NCBI RefSeq assembly: GCF_001999965.1
Contig: NZ_CP019646.1
Coordinates: 1,798,001 to 1,862,000 of the forward strand
Reading direction: 5' to 3'
Source of the DNA: Limihaloglobus sulfuriphilus
GTDB taxonomy: Bacteria; Planctomycetota; Phycisphaerae; Sedimentisphaerales; Sedimentisphaeraceae
DNA length: 64,000 nt
Below the pieces are notes generated by a model that saw nothing but the letters and a program-made list of their open reading frames with translations, was not told the DNA's origin and ran no database searches. Positions 21,132 to 60,346 of this stretch are shown here, in pieces (position 1 is the stretch's first letter; each line of letters starts with the position of its first letter). Made by a program: the position numbers and the translations under genes.

Positions 21132-21172
21132 TTTATAATACCTCATATAATTTTACTTTTTAAACATACTTG

Positions 21173-25863: not shown

Positions 25864-26640
25864 CTATCTTTTGGGCAGCTCTAATTCCCGGGGGGTAAAC
25901 CCTCTGTGCCAGTACAGCTGCCAGATATCCTCAATATTAACATGCATTACAGAACCGTCAACCATTGCTATATTTACAGCCATATCATGACGGTCCATCG
26001 CAAAGGTGGCGGTATTGTTGAACCTGCCCGGAAGCAGATCACCCGTTAGGTTGTCCGGTTTAGGATCACTTGTCTGGGGCAGAGCGTGAGTCCACACACA
26101 ATCGCCGAAAGTCGGTGTTTTGTCCGGATGTTCTACATAGCCCAGAGACCTGTAAGGTTTATCAAACCTGTCAACATAATTTATGTACATCATGCCTTCT
26201 TTGTTGAGCCATGCATTCCAGCCGTAACTGCCGGTGTACTCTGCTTCTTCGGTATTGAGCCATGAACCTCTGCTGCCGTGCCATTTATGTTGATAATTTC
26301 CGGTATAGGGATAGTCTCTTGTCTTTGTTGCCGAAGGACAGGTGCGAAGCTCGTTAGCTTCTTCTGGATTCATACCGTGATAGGGCATGAGCAGCCCCGT
26401 CCAGTATTTTCCGATGGAGAGCTCGTACGGCGGGAAGCGGTCTCCATATTCTGCGATATAAGTCAGATAGCCTATATTCATATCTCTAAGTTTCGCTGAA
26501 CAGACAACTGAGCGGGCCTGATTCCGGGCTTTATTCAGCGCAGGCATCATTATAGCCATCAGCAAAGCGATAATTGAGATAACAACAAGAAGCTCTATCA
26601 GCGTAAATGCTTTAGAACTGTTTTTATTTGAACTGTACAT
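25864..26640 (-). CDS. Pseudopilin-like protein with H-X9-DG domain
   Basis: 258 residues. The N-terminus [20 protein letters not shown] is a class III prepilin signal with Glu at +5. The C-terminus shows the full H-X9-DG pattern (RHDMAVNIAMVDGSVMHVN), the mark of the large planctomycete family of secreted pseudopilins. Function of the C-terminal domain is unknown. It lies between the Gfo/Idh/MocA gene (32 bp) and the LacI gene (36 bp), so it is embedded in a sugar-metabolism operon and not in a pilus locus. Confidence 0.82.
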   Translation of the reverse strand: MYSSNKNSSKAFTLIELLVVISIIALLMAIMMPALNKARNQARSVVCSAKLRDMNIGYLTYIAEYGDRFPPYELSIGKYWTGLLMPYHGMNPEEANELRTCPSATKTRDYPYTGNYQHKWHGSRGSWLNTEEAEYTGSYGWNAWLNKEGMMYINYVDRFDKPYRSLGYVEHPDKTPTFGDCVWTHALPQTSDPKPDNLTGDLLPGRFNNTATFAMDRHDMAVNIAMVDGSVMHVNIEDIWQLYWHRGFTPRELELPKR

Positions 26641-33877: not shown

Positions 33878-34852
33878 TCAGTTACAGTTAACATCTTCCG
33901 GGTCATTGCAGCTGAGCCAGGTATCTGCCAGCATGGCAAAATCCGCAATATCAACATGACAGTCTTCGTTGATATCCGCTGTATATCCGCCGCCGAAAAG
34001 CATAAGCTGCTCGCATGTATCAGGGTAAAGCTCGTACGTAACCCATACGTTGTCAACGCTTACAGCGACATCATCATCTGGAAAGCCAAGACCGTCAACG
34101 AATACCGATACCGTGTCAAATGTGAAATAGTCAGGATCAGAAGGCGTATCGATCACATCTGTGATGATGTAGCCGGGGCCGACCCTTGCGCTTAGACTGA
34201 GCGTCGTCTCATCTAATCTTGTAACTGCGATATCCATGTCGGTTACCAGGTCCTGACAGTTGTAAGAACGGAAAGTGTCTAACAACTGATAACTGATGAA
34301 GTGATCTGTGGATGTACCCTCTGTAACCTTTCTGATGCTGGCGTAGCCGTCGGTAGTTCTGCCGGGGTTTGTGATCACAAAGTATCCGGTATCATCAACC
34401 CTTTCACCGCCGGTGCCCGAGCCGTCGCCGGTGTCTCTGGTTTCGTTCGAATTAAAGAGGCCAAACATCAAAGCTCTGTCAAAAGATGCGTCTGAAGGCT
34501 CAAGAAACTGAAACCTGATTATCGCTTTTAGTGTCTCACCGACCTCAAGCGTGATCGGGTCAACCGCGATAGAATTGGGAATCGCATAATTCTGCCCTGT
34601 AAAATGTGCCCAGAACTGATGAACACCGGCCTCCAGTGTCTCAAGGCGGTAATTGGGAACCTCTGTGTTGACAAAGATTGAATCCGCAGCCATTCTTGAA
34701 AACCAGTGCATCGAGTATGGTATATCCTGTGTGTGGCGCTCTCTGTCAGTGAACTGGTCGTTAACAATTGTTGCATTGATAATATCCTGGGCAGCGACAG
34801 TGAATGTCAAACTCAAGATTACCAGAGTCGGTAACAATACTTTTTTTAACAT
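33878..34852 (-). CDS. Secreted protein with new repeated domain and four-Cys dockerin-like tag
   Basis: 324 residues, signal peptide to about residue 21. No known family recognised. Residues about 25-280 form a beta-rich domain found four times in this window. Its blocks are NDQFTDRERHTQ, QFWAHFT, FDRALMFGLFNSNETRD, DDTGYFVITNPGRTT, TDHFISY and FDTVSVFVDGLGFPDD. The C-terminus is a dockerin-like tag (DINEDCHVDIADFAMLADTW, then LSCN) with four cysteines. AAGGAG lies well placed before the ATG. The motif set, with jellyroll-like spacing, suggests a carbohydrate-binding role, but nothing shows a catalytic site. It follows the SASA-type gene by 64 bp. Confidence 0.7.
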   Translation of the reverse strand: MLKKVLLPTLVILSLTFTVAAQDIINATIVNDQFTDRERHTQDIPYSMHWFSRMAADSIFVNTEVPNYRLETLEAGVHQFWAHFTGQNYAIPNSIAVDPITLEVGETLKAIIRFQFLEPSDASFDRALMFGLFNSNETRDTGDGSGTGGERVDDTGYFVITNPGRTTDGYASIRKVTEGTSTDHFISYQLLDTFRSYNCQDLVTDMDIAVTRLDETTLSLSARVGPGYIITDVIDTPSDPDYFTFDTVSVFVDGLGFPDDDVAVSVDNVWVTYELYPDTCEQLMLFGGGYTADINEDCHVDIADFAMLADTWLSCNDPEDVNCN

Positions 34853-34888
34853 AATTTAATCTCCTTAAAAAAATAATATTAAGTTGCC

Positions 34889-34916
34889 GCGGCAGGGAAA
34901 TTCAATACCCTGTCGC
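34889..34916 (-). terminator. Possible terminator hairpin after the SASA-type gene
   Basis: On the minus strand GCGACAGGG pairs with CCCTGCCGC (one mismatch, 10-base loop) directly after the stop codon at 34917. A run of seven T follows only about 18 bases later, after GGCAACTTAATATTA. It may attenuate and need not end transcription. Confidence 0.4.
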
Positions 34917-37900
34917 TTATATACATAACGGGTTGTTGAAATCCTGGCACTCAAGCCATTGAGATGCGAGGATATCTATATCTTCAAAATTCACATAACA
35001 GTCAGAGTTTATATCTGCCGGCATTCTCTGGCCTGTGCTGATAACTTCGGCGCAGCTGCCCGCAGAGGTTCTCCAGTTATGGCTTAACAGAACCTTATCA
35101 ACGGTAAGCCTGCCCAGATCCCCTGGGAACGCTCTCCCGTCAACAAAAATTGAAATGGTATCAAAAGAAAAATATCTCTGTTCTGCGGGAACATCTACAA
35201 TCCCGGTAACATAATATCCCGGGCCTGCCTTAGCGTCAATGCTCAGCGATGTCTCGCTTGTTCTCTCCACTCCAAACTCGACATCATACCCAGTGCCCTG
35301 CTGCATGGTAAACGAGCTGAAGGCAACCAATGTCTCATAAAAAGAAAAATGATCGTTGTACTGTGAGCCTTCCTGCAGAATCATTTTCTGTATCTTGGCG
35401 TAGCTCATGGTAGTTCGTCCCGGATTTGTCTCGGCATAATAACCGCTGTCATCGCTCCGCTGGGCTCCGGTTCCGGTATAGTCAACTGTATCCCTTGTAC
35501 CCATTGAGTTAAACAGCCCGAACATCAAAGCCCTGTTCCAGGACGTATCTGCCGCCACCGGAAGGCTTAGCCGCATCACAAAACTCAGAGAATCGCCAAC
35601 CCCCAGTGTTATCGGGCTGCCCGGCTGGGTAAAATGCGCCCAAACCTGTTGAGATGTGCAGTCGTCAAGGTGCATGTAATAATCCGCCGAAGACGTGTCA
35701 ACCGTTACGGCGCCGGAGAGGCGTTTGAGCCATTTAGCCGAATCGGGAAGCAGTTGAGTATTTCGTTCTCCGTCAGCAAACTCATCATGCATGAGAATTT
35801 GCTCTTCAGTTTCACCGTACAGAGGAGTGGCCTCGGGGCTCTCAGGATCGTTTGTTTCGAGCCACTGCTGAGAAAGAACCTGCCAGTCGTTAATGTCGAT
35901 ATAACAGTCTTTGTTTACATCACTTGTCAAGTCTTTGCCCATATCTGCCGCCTCTATGCGGAAAGTGCCAACGGGCAGGCCGCCCGCTTTGTCTATCAGC
36001 TGAGCAATTGGGTTGTAGTCCCAGGCGTATCTCATCTCAACAGGCTGCTCAACCTGGTCTGACCAGACAATTACTGTGTGCTCATCCACTATCTGACATT
36101 GAGCTTTGTAGAAAACTCCGTCACTTCCGCATACGGTAAACCCGGCAGGACTGTTCGTCTCGCCGCTGCTGCCCAGGCCCTGCTCGCCTACAGGAGCAAA
36201 TTGCAGCCTTATGCTTCCGGAACACCGTGAAGCCGTCTCAGCGTTTGGCCGCGGACTCTGCGGAAGATTTTCCCAGCCGTAAGCTATTTTAAGGGCTTCA
36301 AGCCCCAGACGGCGGGCAGTTTCTGGTTTATTATCGGGATGTATGTTGTCTGCCTCGCCTATATCTATAGTAACAGCCATACCCACTTTATCAAGCAGCA
36401 ATGCCTGATTCTGGGCATCTCGAAGCTCGGCCCATTCACTATCTCTTGGTTCATCAGAGCGGGTTCCATAGTTTGGCAGCTGAACAAAGATAAACGGCAG
36501 ATCACTCGCCCAGTCCCGCCGCCACTGCTCTATCAGAGCCGGAAACAATGTGCGGTATTCCTGCGCCCTTGAAGCGTTAGATTCGCCCTGATACCAGACA
36601 AAACCCTTAAAGGCATAACCCATCACAGGCTCTATCATGCCATTGTACAGACCGCCGGGCCGATAGTAGGCCAGCATCGGATTTAACGAATAATCCATTG
36701 TATCCGGATCGTAATCTTCCAGATCCTGCTCCCACCTGGCGATCAAATCAGGAAAATCTTCTTCAAGCAGCTCTCTGTTCATCCAGCACTCCGCCCGGGT
36801 TCCGCCCCATGCCGCTACCACCATGCCTACAGGCACATTGAGCTGCTCTTTGAAGTAGAGTCCGAGCTGATAGGCAATTGCGGAAAAATCGCCGACAGTA
36901 TCGCGGCTGCATGAAAGCCAGCGCCCTCTCGGGTCATACATCGGAGTATCTGAGACTTCCTTATATACACTGAAAACCCTCAGATAGTCATCAGGAGCTG
37001 AATCAAGTGCCTGCTGGGCCTCTTTGGTATAGCCAAGCCACCACTCCATATTTGACTGACCCGAACAGAGCCAGACTTCTCCAAAAAGGACATCATTGAG
37101 CTCAACAAATTCATCACCGCAGGTTACAGTAATCCTGTGCGAATCAAACCCTCCCTGCTGCGGCGGCAATGTTATCTTCCATTCTCCGTTATTATCTGCC
37201 GTGGTCTGCCACTGACTATCTCCCAGAGACACCGTTACATCACTCGCTGCCGGCGCCTTGCCCCAGAGAGGTGCGGGCTCATTCTGCTGGAGAATCATAT
37301 TATCTGAAAATATCGTAGGAAGCACAAGCGAAGGATCCTGCGGGATTGTATTCTGTGCCTGGTCAAACAGGGCAATCCTGTCAAGGCCTATGGTAAGCGG
37401 CGGCTGCCAGCTCCATGCCATACTGGAAGATGTAAAAGCGTATCCCTGGAAGTAAACACGCACCAGAGTTATAGGATTGGAGTTGGTGCATTTAAAAAAC
37501 GGCTCTCCGTTTAGTTTTACAGCGATATCCTCGCCTACCCTGTCTGCTTCCCAAACCGCACTGCCCTGGGCTGACGGTACTGAATTTACCAGAGAAAAAC
37601 CGTCGGGATACGAATAACTGCGGCACACTCCGAAGCCCGCTTTGCTGTTGTCCTCATAATTCAGCGAGAGCACAACCTCACTGCCGGAATACAGCAGCAC
37701 CTTTATAAACGGAGCACTTACTATCTCCTGCTGCTGCCACAACGCATCGACACGCAGATGGAAATCTCCAACGTTGTCAACGTACCTTCGCAAACCAAAA
37801 GATGTCCACAGATTTTCACCGGTAGGCGCTATATTTGTAAGCATGATCTTAGAATCAGAAACCTGATAGCTGCAATTCTCAGTATCTGTGTTGTCGTATG

Positions 37901-38024
37901 ATAACAGCCATCCCTCAAGAGCGGAACTGTCAAAATCATCATCAAATACGACCTCACCGTACAAGATTCCCGAACATAAAACTGTGAACAGAACAACTGA
38001 TAATCTTAAAAGTTTGTAATTCAT
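34917..38024 (-). CDS. Sialate O-acetylesterase-type (SGNH) protein with two dockerins and the new domain
   Basis: 1035 residues from the ATG at 38024, which starts a good signal peptide (MNYKLLRLSVVLFTVLCSG); the longer frame from 38090 would overlap the upstream gene. Residues about 25-225 are a beta-sandwich. Residues about 235-690 are a SASA/SGNH esterase: SGQSN with Ser324, YQGESN at 478-483, and D559-x-x-H562 as the other catalytic residues. It would remove O-acetyl groups from a sugar. A dockerin-like motif (DVNKDCYIDINDW) follows at about 700, then a copy of the new domain (about 745-990), then a second dockerin-like tag with four cysteines. An internal dockerin followed by another module is unusual. 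Confidence 0.8.
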   Translation of the reverse strand: MNYKLLRLSVVLFTVLCSGILYGEVVFDDDFDSSALEGWLLSYDNTDTENCSYQVSDSKIMLTNIAPTGENLWTSFGLRRYVDNVGDFHLRVDALWQQQEIVSAPFIKVLLYSGSEVVLSLNYEDNSKAGFGVCRSYSYPDGFSLVNSVPSAQGSAVWEADRVGEDIAVKLNGEPFFKCTNSNPITLVRVYFQGYAFTSSSMAWSWQPPLTIGLDRIALFDQAQNTIPQDPSLVLPTIFSDNMILQQNEPAPLWGKAPAASDVTVSLGDSQWQTTADNNGEWKITLPPQQGGFDSHRITVTCGDEFVELNDVLFGEVWLCSGQSNMEWWLGYTKEAQQALDSAPDDYLRVFSVYKEVSDTPMYDPRGRWLSCSRDTVGDFSAIAYQLGLYFKEQLNVPVGMVVAAWGGTRAECWMNRELLEEDFPDLIARWEQDLEDYDPDTMDYSLNPMLAYYRPGGLYNGMIEPVMGYAFKGFVWYQGESNASRAQEYRTLFPALIEQWRRDWASDLPFIFVQLPNYGTRSDEPRDSEWAELRDAQNQALLLDKVGMAVTIDIGEADNIHPDNKPETARRLGLEALKIAYGWENLPQSPRPNAETASRCSGSIRLQFAPVGEQGLGSSGETNSPAGFTVCGSDGVFYKAQCQIVDEHTVIVWSDQVEQPVEMRYAWDYNPIAQLIDKAGGLPVGTFRIEAADMGKDLTSDVNKDCYIDINDWQVLSQQWLETNDPESPEATPLYGETEEQILMHDEFADGERNTQLLPDSAKWLKRLSGAVTVDTSSADYYMHLDDCTSQQVWAHFTQPGSPITLGVGDSLSFVMRLSLPVAADTSWNRALMFGLFNSMGTRDTVDYTGTGAQRSDDSGYYAETNPGRTTMSYAKIQKMILQEGSQYNDHFSFYETLVAFSSFTMQQGTGYDVEFGVERTSETSLSIDAKAGPGYYVTGIVDVPAEQRYFSFDTISIFVDGRAFPGDLGRLTVDKVLLSHNWRTSAGSCAEVISTGQRMPADINSDCYVNFEDIDILASQWLECQDFNNPLCI

Positions 38025-38062
38025 AAAATTTTTCTCTATAAAAATTCTATTTTTCCGCCGCT

Positions 38063-38971
38063 TTACTGGAGGGCAGTTTCCCAGAGCCATTGACGTGAAA
38101 GCACGTAAAAATCAATAATATTGACGTAACAATCCCTGTTAATATCGCCGGCAAGCCTGTTTCCGTAACCGCATGTTTCGCTGCATGCATCAGTCCGGTA
38201 GAGATAAACACCGGCAAAATCAAGCCCGAAAGCCCCAATGTCACCGGGAAAGGCCCTGCCGTCAAGAAACAGAGAAATAGTATCAAAGCACAGGTAATCT
38301 GAGCCGTCTTCTATCGGTATAAACTCATCATAAATACTTGAGTAAGGCCCGATTACCGAATTGATTTTCAAACCGCCGGGGACACGAAGAATATCAAAGC
38401 TGATATCAACTGCCTCTGTTGACATATTATAAGATGTGAAAGTATTTAACACAGTGTAATTAACGAAATGATCGCTTGAAGTATTTTCCGTAACCATACA
38501 CAGCTTGGCATAGTTATAAGTCGTTTTACCGGGGTTTGTGATTATGAAAAATCCATTATCATCGTTTCTGTTGGCAGAACTGTAAGTCCCGTCTGTTTCA
38601 TCTCTTGTACCCATTGAATTGAAAAGCCCCAGCATAAGTCCCCGGTCCCACGAAGCATCAGAGCCGCTGAGCATCTCTAATACAACACGCAAACGGATCT
38701 GCTCGCCGCTCTCAAGGCATACCTGCTGACCTGCCGGCGTGAAATGGCACCACACCTGCTGAACTCCGTAGGGAGCGGTTTCAATCCTGTAGTCAAGTCC
38801 GTGCGACGACGTAAAAACCGACTCTGGAGGCATCTTGGTAAACCATCTTGCCGAGTCCGGCAGGCTCTGAGACACCCTTTCACCGTCGGCAAACCTGTCA
38901 TACATAAGTGTCTCGTAGCCGGCAATAAGCGGCGAAATAAATACAACAATAAATATGATAATTTTTTGCAT
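38063..38971 (-). CDS. Secreted protein with new repeated domain and dockerin-like tag
   Basis: 302 residues from the ATG at 38971; a GTG at 38980 is an alternative. Signal peptide MQKIIIFIVVFISPLIAG. Carries the same unrecognised domain as three neighbours: YDRFADGERVSQ, QVWCHFT, WDRGLMLGLFNSMGTRD, DDNGFFIITNPGKTT, SDHFVNY, FDTISLFLDGRAFPGD. The end is a dockerin-like tag (DINRDCYVNIIDFYVLSRQW) that lacks the last two cysteines and stops soon after WL. A near-palindrome of the GATATTACGTAATATC type lies just upstream (38983-38998). Function unknown; probably carbohydrate-binding or surface-associated. Confidence 0.68.
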   Translation of the reverse strand: MQKIIIFIVVFISPLIAGYETLMYDRFADGERVSQSLPDSARWFTKMPPESVFTSSHGLDYRIETAPYGVQQVWCHFTPAGQQVCLESGEQIRLRVVLEMLSGSDASWDRGLMLGLFNSMGTRDETDGTYSSANRNDDNGFFIITNPGKTTYNYAKLCMVTENTSSDHFVNYTVLNTFTSYNMSTEAVDISFDILRVPGGLKINSVIGPYSSIYDEFIPIEDGSDYLCFDTISLFLDGRAFPGDIGAFGLDFAGVYLYRTDACSETCGYGNRLAGDINRDCYVNIIDFYVLSRQWLWETALQ

Positions 38972-38982
38972 CGGGCTCACTT

Positions 38983-38998
38983 GATAATACGTAATATC
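38983..38998. promoter_or_regulatory. Near-palindrome GATAATACGTAATATC
   Basis: A 16-bp sequence with one mismatch from the perfect palindrome GATATTACGTAATATC. It lies 11 bp before the ATG at 38971. A second one-mismatch copy lies before the paralogous gene at 40072 (40116-40131). Possible operator shared by the two paralogues. Confidence 0.35.
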
Positions 38999-39145
38999 GT
39001 TATTTTTAAAAAAACTCTAAATTTCTATAAAAAATGCACCTTTTCTGCAAACTGCAAAAAACGCGACTGATACTGCCTTAATTTTAACAATGATTGCTGA
39101 AATACGCAAACTAATATTATGACGTACCAAAATATCAAACTTTTA

Positions 39146-39186
39146 AACGAGGCATTTGCCCGCCTGAACCAACAGACAAATGCCTC
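39146..39186 (-). terminator. Terminator after the PEP-CTERM copy
   Basis: On the minus strand GAGGCATTTG pairs perfectly with CAAATGCCTC (18-base loop), followed by GTTTAAAAGTTTG. It lies 17 bp past the stop at 39203. The stem is strong but the T-run is broken, so termination is likely, not certain. Confidence 0.55.
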
Positions 39187-39202
39187 ACGCTGCATATTAC
39201 AA

Positions 39203-40072
39203 TTACTGCTTCCTGGTTTTCCTAAAAAACGGAACCATAGCGGCTAAAAGTACAAATGTAGCCGGCTCTGGTATCTGGTTGTAAACCACCGTAACATAAT
39301 CGGCGGCTATCGCGCCGGTATCGCCTGGAAATCCTCTGCCATCATAATAGAAAGAAATCGTATCGAAAACTGAATAGACATCGCTGCTGTCAACTATACC
39401 CGAAAAAGTATAGTTGCTCGGGCCGGTTCTTCCGCTAAGAGTAATCTCAGACTCACCGGTCCTGGCAACGGTAAGCCCAACCTGATACTGTGCCTCCGCC
39501 TGCATTGGCCATGAAGACGTATTTGCCATATTTGTATAATGCACAAAATGGTCACTTGCTGTAGATGGCGTAACCTTGTTGACAGTTGAACGATTTATGC
39601 TGTTGACTCCGGGATTGGTAATCACAAAATAACCTGTATCATCCGTTCTGGCAGCGCCTACGCCCGAGCCGTCCGCGGCATCCCTGGTACCGTTGGAATT
39701 AAACAGACCAAACCATAAAGTCCTGTCCCAGCTGCCGTCAGAAGCTACAGGCATTAGAGCGTTAAATGTAAAATCGATGCTCTCACCTACCTGCAGATTG
39801 ACCGGAGAGCCGCTTTCTGTGAAATGTGCCCAAAACTGATTGCCGGCGGAAACACTTGTTTCAATCCTGTAATTAGCAACACCTGTGTTGACAAACAGCG
39901 TTGAACTATCACTTCTGGTGTACCACTTTGCGGAACTCGGCAGGTTTTGAGTGTCCCGCTCGCTGTCATTAAACGGATCATACATAAGCTGTAACGCATC
40001 TGCATAAACAAAAGACACACAAAACAACGTCAAAACCACCAGGTAATTAACAAATAATCCTTTACTCAACAT
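39203..40072 (-). CDS. Secreted protein with new repeated domain and PEP-CTERM tail
   Basis: 289 residues with signal peptide to about residue 25 and GGAG before the ATG. Residues about 27-262 are the same unrecognised domain as in the three downstream proteins: YDPFNDSERDTQ, QFWAHFT, WDRTLWFGLFNSNGTRD, DDTGYFVITNPG, SDHFVHY, FDTISFYYDGRGFPGD. Here the tail is PEP-CTERM (IPEPATFVLLAAMVPF, RKTRKQ) in place of a dockerin-like tag, so the same module is sent to a different anchoring route. First gene of the minus-strand series; near-palindrome 44 bp upstream. Function unknown. Confidence 0.75.
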   Translation of the reverse strand: MLSKGLFVNYLVVLTLFCVSFVYADALQLMYDPFNDSERDTQNLPSSAKWYTRSDSSTLFVNTGVANYRIETSVSAGNQFWAHFTESGSPVNLQVGESIDFTFNALMPVASDGSWDRTLWFGLFNSNGTRDAADGSGVGAARTDDTGYFVITNPGVNSINRSTVNKVTPSTASDHFVHYTNMANTSSWPMQAEAQYQVGLTVARTGESEITLSGRTGPSNYTFSGIVDSSDVYSVFDTISFYYDGRGFPGDTGAIAADYVTVVYNQIPEPATFVLLAAMVPFFRKTRKQ

Positions 40073-51390: not shown

Positions 51391-54300
51391 TTAGTCTGCC
51401 TTTATCAATTTTAACTCATAAGTTTCTGCTTCTACGCTCGTAACTTTCAATACTGTTGAATCTTTTGTGTATCTAAAAATCTCAGCGTTTGCCGGCAGAG
51501 CCGCCGCCGACCACCTGCCTTTGAGCTCTATATAATTGTCCTGGGTCTTGCCCTCGTCAAATACATTGCTCTGGTCAATATCAGTTATTCCGCTGAGATG
51601 GGCCCTTCTAAAATCCGGATCACAAACACTTAGCGTAATAACATCTTCAGCACTCCCCGAAACCGCCATCAACACGGGCGTGCTGACCTTTTCTAAAATC
51701 TCATCACCTGCAAAATCGTATTGACTGTCAAATACCGCGTAGCCTCTCAAGCCGGCCTCTTCGAATTCCAGAACGTGGGCCTGCTTGTTTTTCTCTATAA
51801 CCGTATAAGGCAATTTGTCGGCGTATTTTTTCACAGTAATGGCCTTTCCCGGCTGAACGACTATTAAGTATTCATATTCGCCGCCCTTTGGAGCCTTGCC
51901 GTGATCAATCCAGCTGACAGTATAGTCTCCATGAGTGTCACTGGTATTGCGGTCATCGCGGGATTTCTGACTGGCCCGCTCGATTCTCAGGTTCTCTGCG
52001 TCTGCGACAACATAACCGTTGCCGACCGGGTCAGTAAACCATACAGGGGATTTGCCTTGGGACTCGAAACTGTAAGGAAACTCCTTTACAGGACGAGCGT
52101 TTATTATAATAGAATCATCTTGTGAGCTCATCCAGGTTTGCGAAATCGTTGTCTCTGTGGGATATTCTTTATCAGTATTTTCAATATCCGAACCTAAACA
52201 AACGATCAGGTCATCACAGAAGAAAACGCTTTTTCTGGCACTAAACGAGAGGTCAAATACGGTATCGTGGAAATCCATTGCCCACACGCCGTTGCGTCCC
52301 TGTGACTCTACTGCTCCGACAAAGGTCCTGTCGGTGAAGCGTCTTTTTGTGTTGCCGACGTATATCTTTCCTGTCTTGTCAACAGTTTTCGCATCATCTC
52401 TATGCTGAAGTTTATCAATCGGCAGGTGTATAGTTGTGGCATTGGGCCAGCGGTTCCAGTCCCAGCCGTTCTGAAGATTATAGCCGCTGCTGATAAAGTC
52501 AACCGGATCTCCGGAACCGAGTATCTGCATGGATCCGTAACTTAAATACCTGCCGTAGGCATTCTGGCCGGGCCTGCCTTCATAGTTCCATACGTACCGG
52601 CTCCAGCCCTTTACGCTGACCATCCACTCATCTCTCCTGTGAACTGCCAGAGCGCCGTACGGCTTGCTCCAGAAGCCGCTGGGGGCATTTGACTTTTGGA
52701 TACCTTTATCCGCAAAATCCAGCATCAGCTCAATGTCGCCAACCGGATAAAAATACGATATTCCCGTACCACCGTGTGCAAACACATTCTGGAGATATTG
52801 CGACCGGGGCTGCCACAGTCTCATGAAAACCCCCGCCATGTCTTTATCAACAGGCTCTTTTGCCATAGCCATGTATGCGTACGCCGCGATCATTTCGTTG
52901 CCTGTCTCGGCGTTCATAAGGCGGCCGTTAAAAGCTGCCGGGGTATGATACTTGTTCATTATGATTTCCTGGGTGAGCAGGGCATTTTTAAGATTCCGGT
53001 ACGCCTGATCGGAAATCGCAAACTCTGTGCCGCCAAGAAAATGAGTTACTATTGAACTCATATGGAACGCATTGGGGCAGTATGCATTGGCATACACGCC
53101 GCGGTGATGATAACCCAGGTAGTCATTCTTGATCGTGCCTGACCAGCCCGGAGTAACCGCGAGTGCCTGATTGAACCAGTTTACATAGCATTGCATATAC
53201 TGAACCTTTTGCGGAGAATCTTCCATTGCCAGTATTCTTAAAAGCCGGTGCATGGATTTTGTCCGAAGCGCATCTGCGGTAGTGGTATCCTTCAACGGCT
53301 GCTTTACGAATATCTCTCTAAATACAGTAAACCACTCAATCGCTTCAAGCTCTCTGTTGAGTTTGCCGGCAGCCTTTAATTCATCTCTCATTAAGAATAC
53401 GGAATGAACCCAGCTTGATATCCTGTTGCTTATATGGTTCATTGTTCCAAGGCCGCTGCCCTCTGCCCAGCCCTGATCATTGAAAAAGTCGTAGAGCAGC
53501 ATCAGCTTATCTCTGCTTTCGGTGCTGCCGTTTAGTTTGTAATCCAGCGCCAAAGCCAGGAAGGTTTTTTCGCCGAGACTGGTGTGGAAAAAGTTCGGCA
53601 CATAAGGCGAGCGGCTGGCGAAAAGCCCGGTACCTGTTATCCGGCCGTCTTCATGGCGTTTGATATTGTATTTATCAAATTCCTCTATCCCGTTTCTAAT
53701 ATAACTTTGCGTCGCCTCAAGCCTCTTGGAGTATATCTGGTTACCCTTGTACTTGCCGGTGCCGAGAACCCATTTTTCATATCTCTGGGCAATCTTTTCA
53801 AAATCATCTCTCTGACTTTTGCTGATTTGCTCCGGCAGTTCAAATTCGGGCTCAACTTTCGACCATTCATAAGCATCCCAGGTTGCCGTCTCGACTTTGC
53901 CCGGATGACGGTATTGATAGTCGTTGCTGGCATCCCAATGGATATAATCAGTAAAATCCACTATATCAAAATATAAAACACCGCTGCTGTGCCTGCGGGG
54001 CGCCAGAATTTGCAGTTCGCTGATAACCTCTCCTGATTTTAGACCGAGGTCATCCCTGAAACTTACCCACAAGACCCTCCAGCCGGTGAAATTAAGATCA
54101 AAATCTGCGGGGCGGATACTGCGCCTGGATTTTGTTTTAAACTGAAAGCGGATTGCATCATCGATCTGCTCGGTGTTATAAATCCATATCTTGAAACCGC
54201 CGTTACTGCTCTTGCACGCGGCTTCGATCCTGTGCAGAGAATCAACCCTGACAGCGTCAAATTTTTCCCATCTCCACTTTAATGACTTGTCTCCATGCTT

Positions 54301-54501
54301 GCTTCGATGGTCTGTGACAGAAAGTTTGCCGTTTTGACTCCTTAACTGCCAGTTTGAAGGGACATTTCCCGCCTCAAAAGACTCAACGCCGTCAAAAGGG
54401 GAATCCGGCTGAATAAAATATGCAGCACTTGTACCGGCAAAGACAGCCAATACAAAGCATAAAGCAATAAACGTCTTTTTAAAGTTCACATAAGCGGTCA
54501 T
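51391..54501 (-). CDS. PL8 chondroitinase ABC-type lyase
   Basis: 1036 residues with signal peptide (to about residue 27). Residues about 33-190 are the N-terminal sandwich of chondroitin ABC lyases (FEAGNVPSNWQLRSQNGKLS). Residues about 225-615 are the helical catalytic domain. Likely catalytic residues: His466 with Tyr470 or Tyr474 in GYHHRGVYANAY, Arg527 in FNGRLMN and Glu641 before NAYGRYLSYGSMQI. The conserved HRRDEWMVSVKGWSRY block and the beta domains to the C-terminus fit the family. It would depolymerise chondroitin or dermatan sulfate, perhaps hyaluronan. The length matches ABC lyases; the short bacterial hyaluronidases are smaller. Confidence 0.88.
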   Translation of the reverse strand: MTAYVNFKKTFIALCFVLAVFAGTSAAYFIQPDSPFDGVESFEAGNVPSNWQLRSQNGKLSVTDHRSKHGDKSLKWRWEKFDAVRVDSLHRIEAACKSSNGGFKIWIYNTEQIDDAIRFQFKTKSRRSIRPADFDLNFTGWRVLWVSFRDDLGLKSGEVISELQILAPRRHSSGVLYFDIVDFTDYIHWDASNDYQYRHPGKVETATWDAYEWSKVEPEFELPEQISKSQRDDFEKIAQRYEKWVLGTGKYKGNQIYSKRLEATQSYIRNGIEEFDKYNIKRHEDGRITGTGLFASRSPYVPNFFHTSLGEKTFLALALDYKLNGSTESRDKLMLLYDFFNDQGWAEGSGLGTMNHISNRISSWVHSVFLMRDELKAAGKLNRELEAIEWFTVFREIFVKQPLKDTTTADALRTKSMHRLLRILAMEDSPQKVQYMQCYVNWFNQALAVTPGWSGTIKNDYLGYHHRGVYANAYCPNAFHMSSIVTHFLGGTEFAISDQAYRNLKNALLTQEIIMNKYHTPAAFNGRLMNAETGNEMIAAYAYMAMAKEPVDKDMAGVFMRLWQPRSQYLQNVFAHGGTGISYFYPVGDIELMLDFADKGIQKSNAPSGFWSKPYGALAVHRRDEWMVSVKGWSRYVWNYEGRPGQNAYGRYLSYGSMQILGSGDPVDFISSGYNLQNGWDWNRWPNATTIHLPIDKLQHRDDAKTVDKTGKIYVGNTKRRFTDRTFVGAVESQGRNGVWAMDFHDTVFDLSFSARKSVFFCDDLIVCLGSDIENTDKEYPTETTISQTWMSSQDDSIIINARPVKEFPYSFESQGKSPVWFTDPVGNGYVVADAENLRIERASQKSRDDRNTSDTHGDYTVSWIDHGKAPKGGEYEYLIVVQPGKAITVKKYADKLPYTVIEKNKQAHVLEFEEAGLRGYAVFDSQYDFAGDEILEKVSTPVLMAVSGSAEDVITLSVCDPDFRRAHLSGITDIDQSNVFDEGKTQDNYIELKGRWSAAALPANAEIFRYTKDSTVLKVTSVEAETYELKLIKAD

Positions 54502-54666: not shown

Positions 54667-56931
54667 CTATTTATAATTCAGCCAGGTAGAAGCCAGTATT
54701 GCCAGATCATGATGATCAACAGCACCGTCATCATTGATATCACCGTAGAGAGGAATTCGCCAAAGCCTGTCTGGTGCTGTCTCGCCTGATGCCAGACTGT
54801 AAACCTCTGAGCCGGTCAATGCGGTCGCAAATACGGCAAATTCATCAACCGCTCCGGTATAAAAGGCACTGTTGTCGGCCCTGCCGCCTAAACCAAAACG
54901 GTAGCCGCCCTGCTGATATCTCATAACGGCGGTGTTGGCAAGAACGCCGTCAATGTAGATACTGCCCCTGCCGGTATAAATCCCATCTGCCGCAGGCCCG
55001 TCAGGACTGAATGTGTAGGCGATATGAGTCCACTTCTCCGCAGTCAAAACGGCCCCGGAGTCTAACTGGTTAAAATCTCGATAAAGGGTTACGCGCCAGC
55101 TGGCCGGAGAGCCGCTGCTGACAATCGAAAAGCCGCCGGTACTTGACGCTGGACGGCTAAGAGCCATATCTGATACTGCGGCATCGGGTTTGACCCAGGT
55201 TGACACTGAAAACTCTCCATCCGGATAGATAGCAGGCTCGGTATCAGAGAGCTTAATATCATAAAGATCATCAACACCGTCAAAATATACGCCGCCGTTT
55301 ACCCGTCCTGCTGCCGCAGATGCGGGGCTGCCCTGATTGAGCTGCAAATCAGATCCGTTAGACGAATCATCTGTATGCAGGTTTTGGGCATCGTCAAAGC
55401 TGTAATACGCGGCGAGTTTCACTTCCTCTATATCGCCCTGCTCGAGTTGAGAAAATGAACGGGTTGCGGCTATGCTCCAGCTGTCACCGCCGTCGTCGCT
55501 GGTTATGACAACCGGATCATGAGCATAGATAACTTCATCGGGATCCGGCTCATCGGGCCACTTTGTTCGATACTGCTCTTTTTCCGTTTCGCTCAGATTA
55601 TGAGCGTAGTAAAAGTAAGCCAGATAAAGCCTGTCCTGCCTGTCGATTGTAAGTTTATGGTAATACACGCTGTAGCCCCTGTGGTGAGGAACTACCAGTT
55701 TGCCTAAGTCTTTCCAGGAGCTCTCATTTGCTTTTTTTCTCATATAGTGCAGGCAGTACCTGTCCTGAGAATCTACCATCCTTGAAACAAGATGCAAAGT
55801 ATCGCTGCTGTCGGCAACAAGCCCGACATAGGTTTCATGTACTGTCTCATTGTTATTGAACGGCTCAGGTTCACTCCAGCTCAAGCCCCCATCAAGAGAA
55901 AATGTGTATTTAAACGGCCTCTGATGAGAACCTAAAACCACGTGCAGCCCGCCGCTGCTGTCTGCTGTTATTGCCGGGCCGTTGTGGCCGTCCCCGTCTT
56001 CGCAGCAGCTCAATGTTGTGCCCAGCAGTTTGGGCCCGGTTGCAGCGCCTGTCTTTTTATCATATCTAAAGTAATACTGATCCGTACCGCCGGCAACCTG
56101 AGAAACTCCGGTATAGGTTGCGACAATATGTACCTTATCGCCTAAAGTTATTGTGGAGTTACCAAGCCCTGAATGGCTTGGAGATAGTATATAATCCGGA
56201 TCTGAGATAATCCAGGTTATTGGAGGCACCGTAAGAGAGCCGTCCGGGTTCTTGACCGGAGCTGTTATCCCGATCCCGTCACCGTTGTCGGTAACTATTA
56301 CAGGGGGCCCGCTGCGGTCATTAGACGCCTCTGAGAACTCAAGCCTTACAGAGCCGTAACCTATCTTGTAATGATCCCACGTCTGCATACCGTCGCTTGA
56401 ATGGAACAGAAATGTACCGCTTAATGTATCCGGGTTGACAGCGAAATAAGCATCACCGTCACTGTCAAAAACAATTCTTTCATCGGGCAGAAAAACGCCG
56501 CTGTAGAGCTTGCCGCTCCAGGAAGGCAGCACACTTTTAATAATCTGGGATATTGAATAAGCGACCCAGCCGCCCTCGCTCTCAAGTGTTTGAATATAAG
56601 CGTCTTCGACCCAGGCTCTCTGCGGATAAGGGCAAAAATTTTCACCGGCGCCGCCGTGAAGGCCGACAATCATATACGGCCTGTTATCGTTATCAAAAGT
56701 AACTGTATTGGGCAGAAACCTGGGATTGTAGCCATAGGTCTCACGTTCACGCTCAAAAGTCCCAAAATAAGTTATCGGTGTAACTCCGGGAACAATCAAG
56801 GGCGCATTTGAATCAATCTCCTGATCCTCATGTTCCCAGGGAGAAACCTCCGCTGAAACCGCGAACAGGTTGCAGAGACAAACAGTAAGTGTAAGAGCTT
56901 TTACTATGGCTGTTTTGTTTTTAATCTTCAT
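54667..56931 (-). CDS. BNR-type beta-propeller, LamG and dockerin-like exoprotein
   Basis: 754 residues with signal peptide (to about residue 27). Residues about 30-500 are a BNR_4-type propeller (RPYMIVGLHGG, DGHNGPAITADSSGGLHVVL, FSLDGGLSWSEP, ITSDDGGDSWS). Residues about 510-715 are a LamG module very similar to the one at 57799-58584. The C-terminus is a dockerin-like motif in the Gly form (YGDINDDGAVDHHDLAILAS, then TWLNYK), without cysteines. Several ulvan and glucuronan-type lyases have this propeller fold, so an enzyme role is possible; plain binding is also possible. It lies 165 bp before the PL8 gene in transcription order. Confidence 0.75.
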   Translation of the reverse strand: MKIKNKTAIVKALTLTVCLCNLFAVSAEVSPWEHEDQEIDSNAPLIVPGVTPITYFGTFERERETYGYNPRFLPNTVTFDNDNRPYMIVGLHGGAGENFCPYPQRAWVEDAYIQTLESEGGWVAYSISQIIKSVLPSWSGKLYSGVFLPDERIVFDSDGDAYFAVNPDTLSGTFLFHSSDGMQTWDHYKIGYGSVRLEFSEASNDRSGPPVIVTDNGDGIGITAPVKNPDGSLTVPPITWIISDPDYILSPSHSGLGNSTITLGDKVHIVATYTGVSQVAGGTDQYYFRYDKKTGAATGPKLLGTTLSCCEDGDGHNGPAITADSSGGLHVVLGSHQRPFKYTFSLDGGLSWSEPEPFNNNETVHETYVGLVADSSDTLHLVSRMVDSQDRYCLHYMRKKANESSWKDLGKLVVPHHRGYSVYYHKLTIDRQDRLYLAYFYYAHNLSETEKEQYRTKWPDEPDPDEVIYAHDPVVITSDDGGDSWSIAATRSFSQLEQGDIEEVKLAAYYSFDDAQNLHTDDSSNGSDLQLNQGSPASAAAGRVNGGVYFDGVDDLYDIKLSDTEPAIYPDGEFSVSTWVKPDAAVSDMALSRPASSTGGFSIVSSGSPASWRVTLYRDFNQLDSGAVLTAEKWTHIAYTFSPDGPAADGIYTGRGSIYIDGVLANTAVMRYQQGGYRFGLGGRADNSAFYTGAVDEFAVFATALTGSEVYSLASGETAPDRLWRIPLYGDINDDGAVDHHDLAILASTWLNYK

Positions 56932-56962
56932 TTATATCTCTGATGTAAATCCGTATATGCTG

Positions 56963-57721
56963 TTAATTCGCCTCAGGAGAAGGCCGGCGAATCGGACCTT
57001 CTTCAATACAGTCTTCAACCAGCTCATCGTATGATGCGTATTCAACGTGAAGATCTATGCATAAGTAGTTGCAGCCGTCGCTGTGCCGTTTGCCGTAATA
57101 GTATTCACCGGGAATCTGCCAGTATTCTCCGCCCCAGAAACGGGTGCGGTCAAAATCAAGCTCCGTCCTGCTGTCGCCCAGAAGTGCCGTCACAGCGTGA
57201 TTTTCGAGTTTTGATTTTTTTCTCGGTTTCCACCAGTCTCCATCTCCGACATCTCTTCTGTAATAGGCTCCGATAAGCCAGTTCCAGCCGTAGCAGAGCA
57301 CCTTTCGGCCATGTACAGCAGCATTTGCTCCTTTAAAGCCGGGGCAGACCAATACCTTCGGAGCATCACCATTGTCGTTCTGCTCATCCGGACGGCCTTT
57401 ACCGTCAAACCAAGGGTCGTTTTTATAGTCCATGTAAGGGGCAATCTCTTTGTACCACCACGTGGTGTGGGGAAACTTGGGAAACAGATCTGATACAGTT
57501 CTGCTGCCTATACCCGTGCCGTCAGCCATCGGAAGCCAGTCGTTATTGTCCATGGTAAACATTTCCACACCCATGCCGATTTGTTTCTGATTGCTTTTGC
57601 AAACAACCCTCTGGGCAAGATTTCTGGCTTTATTGAGAGAAGGCATCATGATAGCCATAAGCAACGCAATAATCGAAATTACTACCAGAAGCTCAATCAG
57701 TGTAAAACCTTTTTTTGTCAT
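56963..57721 (-). CDS. Pseudopilin-like protein
   Basis: 252 residues from the ATG at 57721, six bases after AAAGAG; the ATG at 57739 precedes any ribosome site. Prepilin signal [15 protein letters not shown] with Glu at +5. It is paralogous to the protein at 59570-60346 (shared [51 protein letters not shown]). The H-X9-DG motif is degenerate here (H then nine residues then DL). It lies 31 bp before the BNR protein gene, downstream of a likely terminator. Role of these pseudopilins in a lyase operon is unknown. Confidence 0.8.
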   Translation of the reverse strand: MTKKGFTLIELLVVISIIALLMAIMMPSLNKARNLAQRVVCKSNQKQIGMGVEMFTMDNNDWLPMADGTGIGSRTVSDLFPKFPHTTWWYKEIAPYMDYKNDPWFDGKGRPDEQNDNGDAPKVLVCPGFKGANAAVHGRKVLCYGWNWLIGAYYRRDVGDGDWWKPRKKSKLENHAVTALLGDSRTELDFDRTRFWGGEYWQIPGEYYYGKRHSDGCNYLCIDLHVEYASYDELVEDCIEEGPIRRPSPEAN

Positions 57722-57749
57722 TTTTTCTCTTTCGTTCATCAGTGATTAT

Positions 57750-57787
57750 TTAAAGCATGGGGCCTTTTCAGCATAAAGACCCCATGC
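57750..57787 (-). terminator. Terminator or attenuator inside the exoprotein block
   Basis: On the minus strand GCATGGGG pairs perfectly with CCCCATGC across a 17-base loop, followed by TTTAAATAATC. It is 12 bp past the stop at 57799. As genes on both sides belong together, it may act as an attenuator giving more of the upstream exoprotein mRNA. Confidence 0.6.
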
Positions 57788-57798
57788 CGTAACTTAAT

Positions 57799-58584
57799 TT
57801 AGCTGCGTCTGGTTCTGCCAAAGAGCATACCAACACCGACAAGCAGCATTGTCGCAGGCTCGGGTACCGTAATCGGAGTATATGTACCGTCAGCAAGGCC
57901 GGCAACCTCATCAGCGGTCAATGCAGAGCCGAAAATGGCAAATTCATCAATTGCCCCGCCAAAGAAAGCGCTGTTATTGCCGCGGCCGCCTAAACCAAAG
58001 CGGAAACCGCCCTGCTGGTATGCCGCAGTACCAGAATTGGCAAGTGTGCCATCGACATACAGACTGGCTGTACCGTTATAGAGCCCGTCAACACCAGCTC
58101 CGTCTGGTGCAAAGGTGTAAACTATGTGAGCCCATTGCTCCGCGGCAACCTGCACACCGGAATTTACCTGATCATAATCAGGATACACGGTAACACGCCA
58201 GGTCGCCGGTGTACCGTCGGTAATTAACGCAAAACCGCCGCTGTTTGACGCTGCCGGACGGCTGACTGCAACACCAGAAGCTGTCGTGTCAGGCCTTACC
58301 CATGTCGATACCGAAAAGGCACCGTCAGGGTAAATCGCGGGATCTGTATCTGAAAGTTTAATATCATACAGATCGTCAACGCCGTCGAAATACGCGGCTC
58401 CGTTAACCTGTCCGCTCGTCGCGGCGGCAGGATTGCCCTGATTGTTTTGCAAATCAGAACCATTGCCGGAATCATCCGTTACCAGAGAGGCTGCGTTATC
58501 AAAACTGTAATAGGCAACCAGATTGGCATTTACTGCCGCGGCAGCTAAACACATTAAAACCACTAAACTAATCTTCTTTAACAT
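57799..58584 (-). CDS. LamG-domain PEP-CTERM exoprotein
   Basis: 261 residues with signal peptide (MLKKISLVVLMCLAAAAVNA). Residues about 22-232 are a LamG module (AYYSFDNAASLVTDDSGNGS, YFDGVDDLYDIKLSDTDPAI, GGFRFGLGGRGNNSAFFGGA) that matches the one in the BNR protein almost block by block. The tail is PEP-CTERM (VPEPATMLLVGVGMLF, RTRRS). AGGGAGA precedes the ATG. Probably a surface or exopolymer protein that binds the glycan. It lies between a LamG/dockerin gene (36 bp) and the attenuator-like hairpin. Confidence 0.85.
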   Translation of the reverse strand: MLKKISLVVLMCLAAAAVNANLVAYYSFDNAASLVTDDSGNGSDLQNNQGNPAAATSGQVNGAAYFDGVDDLYDIKLSDTDPAIYPDGAFSVSTWVRPDTTASGVAVSRPAASNSGGFALITDGTPATWRVTVYPDYDQVNSGVQVAAEQWAHIVYTFAPDGAGVDGLYNGTASLYVDGTLANSGTAAYQQGGFRFGLGGRGNNSAFFGGAIDEFAIFGSALTADEVAGLADGTYTPITVPEPATMLLVGVGMLFGRTRRS

Positions 58585-58620
58585 AATGAGGTCTCCCTTC
58601 TAAATAAAATAATAAAAAAT

Positions 58621-59487
58621 TTACTTCTGCATCAGCCAATTCTGAGCCAGAAGTGCAAGATCTGCGTAATCAACAATACCGTCACTGTTTATGTCACCGG
58701 CAAGGTCAACAAAAACATTTGCCGGAGTTGAACCCCCTGTGTAGAGGCTGTTTACCTGACTATCCGTCAATACGCCGTTGAAAACCGCGTACTCATCAAC
58801 CGAACCGGTAAAGAAAGCACTTCCGTTAGGTGTGCTGTTGGCGCGGAAGCCGAGTCCAAACCTGAAACCGCCCGGAACATACCAGCTTGTCTCTGTGCCG
58901 ACTAACTGGCCATTAGCATAGATTGATGCATCACCTTCGTACACTCCCCAGACATCATCCCATACACCGTTATAAGTAAGAGCGATATGTGTCCACTCGC
59001 CGGCTGTTACAAGAGCGCCTGTGTTAAGTGTGTATGCAGCTCCGTCTTCATAAAGAACGAATCTGTAGGTCGCAGGGGTGCCGTCAGTGGTGATTGCATA
59101 GCCGCCGCCGAGAGACGCTGCGGTTCTAGATACGCACACTCCGGAAGCACCATCGTCGCTTTTCACCCACAAAGAAATCGAAAACGGGCCATCGGGATAA
59201 ATCGAAGGATTTGTATCAGCTTCCCTGACGGCATATCCGTTTGTGCCGTCAAAATAGACGGCCCCGCCAACCTGGCCGGCCGCAGCTGTGGGTTCTGAAA
59301 AATCAAATTCATCTGTGGTCAGAGTAGAACCGTTACCCGAATCATCAGTACCCAGAGCATCCGGGTTGTCAAAGCTGTAATACACTGCCAGCGAGCCGTC
59401 AGCGGCTAAGGCTGAATTCAACGAAAGCAGTAAGACAGCTCCCATTACCAGAACGACTGTTTTTACTAAACTTTTCTTGTTTCTCAT
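58621..59487 (-). CDS. LamG-domain dockerin-like exoprotein
   Basis: 288 residues from the ATG at 59487; the TTG at 59502 belongs to a GAGGT ribosome site, the same leader as at 21131. Signal peptide MRNKKSLVKTVVLVMGAVLL to about LAADG. LamG-like domain at about 30-245 (AVYYSFDNPDALGTDDSGNG, VYFDGTNGYAVREADTNPSI, GGFRFGLGFRANSTPNGSAF). The tail is a Gly-form dockerin-like motif (GDINSDGIVDYADLALLAQN, WLMQK). Same module as the neighbour but with a different sorting tag. Ligand unknown. Confidence 0.82.
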   Translation of the reverse strand: MRNKKSLVKTVVLVMGAVLLLSLNSALAADGSLAVYYSFDNPDALGTDDSGNGSTLTTDEFDFSEPTAAAGQVGGAVYFDGTNGYAVREADTNPSIYPDGPFSISLWVKSDDGASGVCVSRTAASLGGGYAITTDGTPATYRFVLYEDGAAYTLNTGALVTAGEWTHIALTYNGVWDDVWGVYEGDASIYANGQLVGTETSWYVPGGFRFGLGFRANSTPNGSAFFTGSVDEYAVFNGVLTDSQVNSLYTGGSTPANVFVDLAGDINSDGIVDYADLALLAQNWLMQK

Positions 59488-59569
59488 TTTGTAATACCTC
59501 AATAAAATAATAAAATTTGAGTAAGACTGACTTTTACAAAGCCATCACACATACTATGCATCTAAAATG

Positions 59570-60346
59570 TTAATTTTTTCTCAATGGCCTGGCCCAGCGA
59601 ATCGGACCGCCATTAACGCAATCCTCGACAAGCTCCTCATAACCGGCATGGTTTACAGCGCCCGAGACTGTCAGATAATGAGTCCCATCGTTATGGCGCT
59701 TTGAATAATAATATTCACCCGGTATCTGCCAGTACTCGCCGCCCCATACGCGTGTCCGGTCAAAATCAAGCTCTGTTCGGCTGTCGCCTACCATAGCGGT
59801 GGATTCGTCTGAAGATACCTTAGACCTTTTCCACGGTTTCCACCAGGCCTGAGACGGATCCTGGTCTCTGCTGTTGTAATACGCGCCCAGCCGGTTATTC
59901 CAGCCGTAGCACAAAACCTTTGCGCCGGGCTGACCGATACTGCCGGCAGTAAATGACGGGCAAACCAGAATATCAGGCGCTCTATTCTCAAAATGCTGAT
60001 CAGGGCGGCCCTTTGTATCGAACCACGGGTGATCCTTGAATTCCATATAAGGTGCTATCTCTTTGTACCACCACGTTGTGTGGGGATACTCGGGGAAAAT
60101 GTCTGAAACTGTCCGCCTGCCGATGCCTGTTCCGTCAAGCATTGGCAGCCAGTCGTTATTATCCTGAGCAAAAAACTCAACGCCCAAACCGATCTGCTTC
60201 AAATTACTCTTGCAGACCACACCCTTGGCCGCTTCTCTGGCTTTTTGCAGTGAGGGCATCATAATCGCCATGAGCAATGCTATAATGGAAATCACCACCA
60301 AAAGCTCAATCAGTGTAAAGGCCTTAATTCTATTTGCAGATTTCAT
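59570..60346 (-). CDS. Pseudopilin-like protein, first gene of the lyase operon
   Basis: 258 residues with AGGAGA 6 bp before the ATG. Prepilin signal [14 protein letters not shown] with Glu at +5. Close paralogue of the protein at 56963-57721 over its whole length, with the H-X9-DG motif further altered (H then nine residues then SG). As first gene after the divergent control region it is likely the most strongly expressed of the operon. It may help place exoproteins or lyases at the cell surface; this is inference from position. Confidence 0.82.

Follow-up and report, generated by a model that had tools for sequence, protein, structure and literature searches.

Several described systems resemble parts of the arrangement reported here, in which neighbouring genes in the genome of the planctomycete Limihaloglobus sulfuriphilus furnish copies of a LamG module with one of two C-terminal tags: a PEP-CTERM signal, or a single EF-hand motif resembling half of a dockerin (hereafter the EF tag). 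The locus is a run of five minus-strand genes in a stretch of 64,000 nt (the window), which sits in one 3.87-Mb contig. PEP-CTERM/exosortase sorting (Haft et al. 2006, PMC1569441) is matched here in the PEP motif, helix and basic end of the signal, in the presence of an exosortase and in the many proteins tagged; however, in this genome neighbouring copies of one module bear either PEP-CTERM or an EF-hand tag, which is not of the membrane type. In some families, GlyGly-CTERM, LPXTG and PEP-CTERM stand in for each other on different members (PMC3237569), again a combination of one protein family with differing C-terminal sorting signals, but the swaps described there involve membrane-helix signals in different genomes, whereas here the bearers are neighbours in one genome and one tag is of the calcium-loop type. 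With type I dockerins, the EF tag shares the sequence of one F-hand repeat and the C-terminal position; it differs from them in usually being one repeat, in often having a cysteine at loop position 6, in its W-L end, and in occurring without a Pfam cohesin in 16 of the 18 genomes sampled from the order, Sedimentisphaerales. Non-cellulosomal dockerins have been described from the phylum in the 'Planctosome' cohesin/dockerin proposal for freshwater Planctomycetes (PMC6461901), although that model requires cohesins, of which these 16 genomes have none by Pfam. Planctomycete pili have also been proposed as 'fishing rods' for polysaccharide uptake (Boedeker et al. 2017, as told in PMC12078418); the present system likewise connects dedicated pilin-like proteins with the use of polysaccharides, but the link is genetic, with pseudopilin genes adjoining those for tagged proteins.

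Sorting-signal exchange within families (PMC3237569) and non-cellulosomal planctomycete dockerins (PMC6461901) are therefore already known. What is new, within the literature searched, is that PEP-CTERM and a single EF-hand tag replace each other on the products of neighbouring genes within a genome, together with the spread of the EF tag through the sampled genomes of the order, most of which show no cohesin, its cysteine coupling and its link to pseudopilins. The same searches found no work joining dockerins with PEP-CTERM in Planctomycetes, none joining dockerins, EF-hands and Rhodopirellula, and a single one, on archaea, in which dockerins and exosortases appear together.

EF tags were sought with a profile, A1, made from eight tags of the window, which reaches poorly outside the order and of which both EF tags of the locus are themselves rows. 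Read from 60346 down to 54667, the run encodes a pseudopilin, a LamG protein with an EF tag, a LamG protein with PEP-CTERM, a second pseudopilin and a BNR propeller-LamG protein with an EF tag, the successive genes being separated by 82, 36, 59 and 31 bases:

59570-60346, minus strand: pseudopilin, 258 aa, first gene of the run (N_methyl and DUF1559 above cut-off)
58621-59487, minus strand: LamG alone with C-terminal single EF-hand tag, 288 aa (Pfam); a second possible start is a TTG at 59502, 15 bases earlier
58732-59394, minus strand: LamG module of the 288-aa protein, residues about 32-252 (Pfam)
58624-58698, minus strand: EF-hand (half-dockerin-like) tag of the 288-aa protein, Gly type (A1 52.5 bits, by construction; PF00404 16.4 bits)
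57799-58584, minus strand: LamG alone with PEP-CTERM, 261 aa (Pfam)
57886-58524, minus strand: LamG module of the PEP-CTERM protein, residues about 21-233 (Pfam)
57805-57870, minus strand: PEP-CTERM tag (Pfam, above cut-off)
56963-57739, minus strand: pseudopilin, 258 aa (N_methyl above cut-off; DUF1559 match below cut-off)
54667-56931, minus strand: BNR_4 propeller, LamG and C-terminal single EF-hand tag, 754 aa (Pfam)
54769-55419, minus strand: LamG module of the BNR protein, residues about 505-721 (Pfam)
54670-54744, minus strand: EF-hand (half-dockerin-like) tag of the BNR protein, Gly type (A1 52.5 bits, by construction; PF00404 14.9 bits)

An earlier note on this DNA had picked out the trio of LamG proteins, and the three genes are as it described them, with LamG in all, two dockerin-like ends and one PEP-CTERM end. 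The Laminin_G_3 scores of the trio are 75.1, 85.3 and 70.5 bits against a Pfam cut-off of 27.6. The PEP-CTERM end, with its PEP motif, helix and basic end, reaches 25.0 bits (cut-off 20.7); the Dockerin_1 scores of the two EF ends lie below the cut-off of 22.9, and the alignments cover positions 1-22 and 1-23 only of the 57 in that model. The note called the LamG modules nearly superimposable, which is somewhat strong for pairwise identities of 64%, 50% and 51% over 212 columns. Among the 68 LamG modules detected genome-wide, the three are mutual nearest relatives. Support is 99/99 for the trio clade and 100/92 for the grouping of the PEP-CTERM and BNR copies. As the PEP-CTERM copy is nearer to the BNR copy than the two EF-tagged copies are to each other, the tag does not track the descent of the module. 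Synonymous sites within the trio are saturated (synonymous divergence about 3), hence the duplications are old, and recent gene conversion inside the trio was rejected on the same ground. A scan of genome contigs for orthologues of the trio with a three-row alignment, which may leave out the window itself and records very close to it, returned seven loci at 22-42% identity, all in other phyla and none in the order. All three proteins also match the NCBIfam TafC family fimbrial protein weakly (23-37 bits, cut-off 410).

Across the genome, the tagged sets comprise 61 PEP-CTERM places and at least 127 EF-tagged open reading frames (ORFs), 188 together; the EF counts are lower bounds because the best 150 of 300 candidates were scored with A1, and nine of the 127 ORFs are cut by the stretches fetched. 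Three PEP-like genes recognised by pattern or eye only, the LamG genes at C1:1675178 and C1:1798976 and one at 39203 in the window, stand outside the 61. PF13385 has its 68 matches in 56 ORFs, of which 35 are EF-tagged, nine PEP-tagged, ten untagged and two cut by the stretch; each of the nine PEP-tagged ORFs has one LamG module, and the EF-tagged ORFs have one to three. At 1163-1166, 1675-1681, 1709-1715, 1852-1857 and 2393-2397 kb, the best homologue of a PEP-tagged module is an EF-tagged module a few kilobases away. At 247-251 kb it is an untagged neighbour, with the EF-tagged neighbour second, and the pattern is absent for the PEP-tagged modules at 1083, 1798 and 1799 kb. On the LamG tree, the nine PEP-tagged modules need eight changes of label, at least seven of which fall on well-supported branches. 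These comparisons bear out the note's view that one module is made with two C-terminal tags, and show that this has come about repeatedly.

The same relationship is found irrespective of fold. An EF-tagged homologue lies within 6 kb of 13 of the 61 PEP proteins (null mean 0.26, maximum 3, 2000 permutations) and is in all 13 cases the top homologue among tagged proteins, and a same-strand EF gene lies within 5 kb of 27 of the 61 (circular shifts mean 8.0, maximum 20). In most of 26 cross-tag pairs examined, homology covers nearly the whole PEP protein, the shared part usually being the N-terminus of the EF protein and sometimes, as in the window, adjacent to the tag. LamG, solenoid-like, FG-GAP-like and other families, assigned partly by eye, show the exchange, and the 52 local homologous pairs divide into 29 EF-EF, 19 EF-PEP and four PEP-PEP. 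No ORF bearing both tags was found in the genome. Because the tags look as if dealt at random among local paralogues, they are exchangeable suffixes and not proven partners. Three PEP-CTERM genes lying far apart (C1:2851657, 3318849 and 3635507) are 98-100% identical over their aligned part, and have perhaps been spread by a mobile element.

The strongly non-random feature is which proteins carry which tag, with respect to both size and content. Median lengths are 252 aa for PEP proteins and 722 aa for EF proteins. A single enzyme family, peptidase M28, was matched among the 61 PEP proteins. The content of the EF proteins was scanned in 62 of them, drawn at random from the 105 ORFs of up to 1100 aa, out of 118 complete ones; amongst the 25 of 37 families listed, sulfatase, phosphodiester glycosidase, SASA esterase, trypsin, alpha-amylase and Trypsin_2 have one member each and GxGYxYP has two. 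The few enzyme matches fall mostly on the EF side.

The EF tag itself is a loop-helix with a W-L ending, in which the positions of calcium ligands are kept: in 95 aligned terminal tags, successive F-hand loop ligands are Asp in 78, Asn in 66, Asp in 82, Asp or Asn in 86 and Asp in 89, a pattern from which calcium binding would be expected. The tag lies within 10 aa of the end in 84 of the 127 ORFs and within 30 aa in 99, whilst the last matched tag is more than 150 aa from the visible end in 18. One loop is present near the end in 81 of the tagged ORFs and two or three in 24, with none by a strict pattern in 22; the two F-hand repeats in about 57 positions by which type I dockerins are recognised are not found in the window tags. 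Genome-wide, 22 of 116 listed Dockerin matches pass the cut-off alone and 13 more do so with in-frame neighbours (best 150 of 189 candidates). The nearest solved structures to the tag are dockerin repeats.

Position 6 of an F-hand loop is usually Gly. It is Cys in 55 of 98 tags that could be scored once those with no W, no loop pattern or a position more than 60 aa from the end had been dropped. A second cysteine lies within 20 residues upstream in 54 of these 55, as against seven of the 43 tags without a loop cysteine (background expectation 0.21 per 20 residues), and one row among the 43 is misaligned by a second W and actually has both the loop and the upstream cysteine. The same tendency is seen in two relatives, a genome of the same family (G056; 10 of 10 versus three of seven) and one of another family of the order (G099; 10 of 10 versus four of 10). 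Such coupling speaks for a disulphide, and so for a protein exported to oxidising surroundings; it also speaks for selection acting on the tag. The bond, predicted for about half of the scored tags, would join the calcium loop to the linker before it, which suggests two classes of EF tag, one disulphide-locked and the other not. The EF tag thus looks like a real, selected and exported element. Were it a mere calcium-stabilised cap, protecting the C-terminus and playing no part in location, its well-kept ligand positions and a cysteine pair that would stabilise the end could be accounted for; however, an end that is common to unrelated families, is mostly terminal and replaces a sorting signal on sibling proteins makes such a cap very unlikely. 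In 27 of the 98 scored tags, two or more cysteines lie in the tail after the W.

The earlier note had the two tags serving two anchoring routes, the dockerin-like one possibly leading to a complex. A cellulosome-like complex, in which the tags are true dockerins on cohesin scaffolds beside a PEP-CTERM-anchored layer, would accord with the dockerins found as nearest structures and with a 2069-aa ORF (C1:1003222-1009431) containing both of the genome's Pfam cohesins and a dockerin-like repeat between them. This ORF fits the single scaffoldin-like 'Coh2-Doc1-Coh1' protein reported for L. sulfuriphilus (PMC11557425). However, it is S8-protease-like by eye and itself ends in EF-type repeats, its two cohesins would have to serve at least 127 tagged ORFs, and most of the tags have one loop rather than two. 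In the order, the EF tag occurs in all 18 sampled genomes, with between 19 and at least 71 matches each, and a Pfam cohesin in only two; amongst 120 genomes of the class, scored on at most the best 71 candidates each in the A1 run, 19 have a cohesin, 55 an A1 match and seven both. PEP-CTERM and exosortase are each present in 18 of 18 order genomes, and in 114 and 117 of the 120, respectively. The genome under study has one exosortase by our search (193.3 bits), beside a polysaccharide-export-like gene (by eye), which supplies the PEP route of the note with a candidate enzyme. For PEP-CTERM the expected partner is therefore present; for the EF tag this test mostly failed to find one. The note's route from dockerin to complex is left weak, and true dockerins on cohesin scaffolds seem a distinctly improbable explanation. 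One genome outside the order, G113, matches the EF tag 37 times but PEP-CTERM not at all, and may use the EF tag alone.

Neither G056 nor G099 has a Pfam cohesin, and both show tag exchange between neighbours when EF ORFs are sought in stretches around their PEP genes. An EF sibling lies within 6 kb of eight of the 40 PEP proteins in G056 (null mean 0.30, maximum 3) and of five of the 44 in G099 (null mean 0.20, maximum 2), where 44 of 45 PEP places had a usable ORF; the sibling is the top homologue in seven of the eight and three of the five cases. No ORF with both tags was found in these stretches. One EF protein of G056 (1413 aa), the body of which is flavoprotein-like by eye, has an N-terminus whose DNA is 94% identical, along 732 bases, to the PEP gene next to it, and the match ends about where the PEP tag begins; this pair is probably a recent fusion of modules accompanied by a change of tag.

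The genome has 67 N_methyl matches, of which those in the window are as follows:

20265-21146: pseudopilin place
25864-26640: pseudopilin place
56963-57739: pseudopilin of the locus
59570-60346: pseudopilin of the locus

The last two are 67% identical to each other. Forty of the 67 pseudopilin genes have a tagged gene of the same orientation as their neighbour (1000 shifts: mean 2.68, maximum 10), with 24 of the 40 within 400 bases downstream (shift mean 0.71, maximum 5). This adjacency suggests a shared export or display route for proteins with either tag. Of the remaining 27 pseudopilin genes, 13 are clustered at 596-601, 2279-2280, 3059-3060 and 3375-3376 kb, perhaps as candidate pilus or secretion operons.

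The explanation that we favour, without putting its chances above even, is that exosortase anchoring operates beside a selected, cohesin-independent EF-hand tag, which would have a receptor of its own or depend on the pairing of half-dockerins. A lectin-like LamG module would have been duplicated locally and each copy fitted with one or other of the exchangeable C-terminal tags: PEP-CTERM on short copies with a single module, and mostly one EF-hand loop-helix ending in W-L on longer, multi-domain copies. The sole exosortase found would be expected to cleave PEP-CTERM, thereby anchoring its bearer to the envelope or exopolymer, as has been proposed for the family. The EF tag would most likely retain or assemble proteins through a surface partner or another half-dockerin, with no need of a cohesin. 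A common type of cassette would encode a pseudopilin along with surface proteins directed at one polymer, the binding modules and enzymes for which would thus be kept together at the cell surface. A more novel reading, which we advance tentatively and with the balance a little against it, is that the single EF-hand, often disulphide-locked end is a distinct sorting or assembly tag of the Sedimentisphaerales, independent of cohesins, exchangeable with PEP-CTERM and carried in pseudopilin cassettes, which would hold proteins at the surface by docking on a receptor or by half-dockerin pairing in trans.

A number of observations weigh against this explanation. A divergent cohesin-like receptor may escape Pfam; the EF tags of the window trio are of the Gly type, with no cysteine pair; and the two structure models are poor, with mean predicted local distance difference test (pLDDT) values of 56.1 and 42.0 that are too low to judge the fold of the tag. 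Pseudopilins accompany both tags (EF in 30 and PEP in 10 of the 40 cases) and therefore do not explain the difference between them; the idea that the EF tag is specific to pseudopilins was rejected for the same reason. Most of the 188 tagged ORFs have no adjoining pseudopilin, and the figure from the relatives, where eight of 15 pilin-like ORFs adjoin a tagged ORF, comes from stretches picked around PEP genes and has no null. PEP labels are scattered over the LamG tree much as shuffled ones are (eight changes, shuffled mean 8.6), and the 19 local cross-tag pairs compare with a mean of 21.2 when labels are shuffled, neighbours within 6 kb being homologous in 29 of 54 EF-EF pairs, less often in EF-PEP pairs (19 of 53) and in four of 18 PEP-PEP pairs. 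These counts speak against a dedicated design of two routes. Since local duplicates are common and their tags are dealt as if at random, they give no sign of selection for having one of each, or on the pairing itself.

This random dealing, the scatter of tag changes over the tree and the pseudopilins beside both tags would all be expected of interchangeable tags giving equivalent retention at the surface, where a gene picks up whichever tag is nearest, length decides what is tolerated and there is no design of two routes. The strong split in size and content between the two sets would not be expected, nor would the failure to find an ORF with both tags, and cross-tag pairs form a higher share of local (19 of 52) than of distant (36 of 251) homologous pairs (Fisher p 0.0005). 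We consider equivalence of the tags rather unlikely.

If exosortase anchoring does operate beside a separate, cohesin-independent EF tag, then many 'dockerin' annotations in these bacteria would mark something other than a cellulosome, and a survey that reported 13 dockerin proteins in L. sulfuriphilus (PMC11557425) would have seen about a tenth of a tagged set of at least 127 ORFs. The expansions of pseudopilins in planctomycetes would likewise be tied to surface lectins and enzymes. Natural matched pairs, with one module and two tags in one gene run, allow a direct test of the destinations of the tags.

The locus is best explained as belonging to a run of polysaccharide-utilisation genes in a planctomycete of the Sedimentisphaerales type. 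A further gene follows 165 bases downstream of that for the BNR-LamG protein:

51391-54501, minus strand: polysaccharide lyase family 8 protein

The score of this protein with the NCBIfam chondroitinase-AC model is far below the cut-off of that model. Because of the lyase and a nearby sulfatase, the target polymer is probably glycosaminoglycan-like. In scans for promoters and terminators, the counts exceeded those of shuffles by about 1.5 and 1.3 standard deviations and were not used.

The earlier note had also seen a choice between the two ends on a domain shared by proteins encoded elsewhere in the window (33878-40072, region B):

33878-34852, minus strand: region B domain with EF tag (Cys type; translation read)
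34917-38090, minus strand: N-terminal half esterase-like (by eye) with an internal EF tag at its end, followed by region B domain and EF tag
38063-38980, minus strand: region B domain with EF tag (Cys type; translation read)
39203-40072, minus strand: region B domain with PEP-CTERM-like end (by eye), the EF tag and its cysteines being absent

The translations agree with it, having EF ends at 33878, 34917 and 38063 and, by eye, a PEP-CTERM-like end at 39203. At E values up to 0.01, the protein encoded at 39203 matches nothing in Pfam; in all, two of the region B proteins scanned are without a match. A poor model of a third region B protein (pLDDT 56) matched legume lectins and galectins in Foldseek, with template modelling scores of 0.23-0.35 by query length among the 50 matches listed, which gives only a hint of a concanavalin A-like fold.

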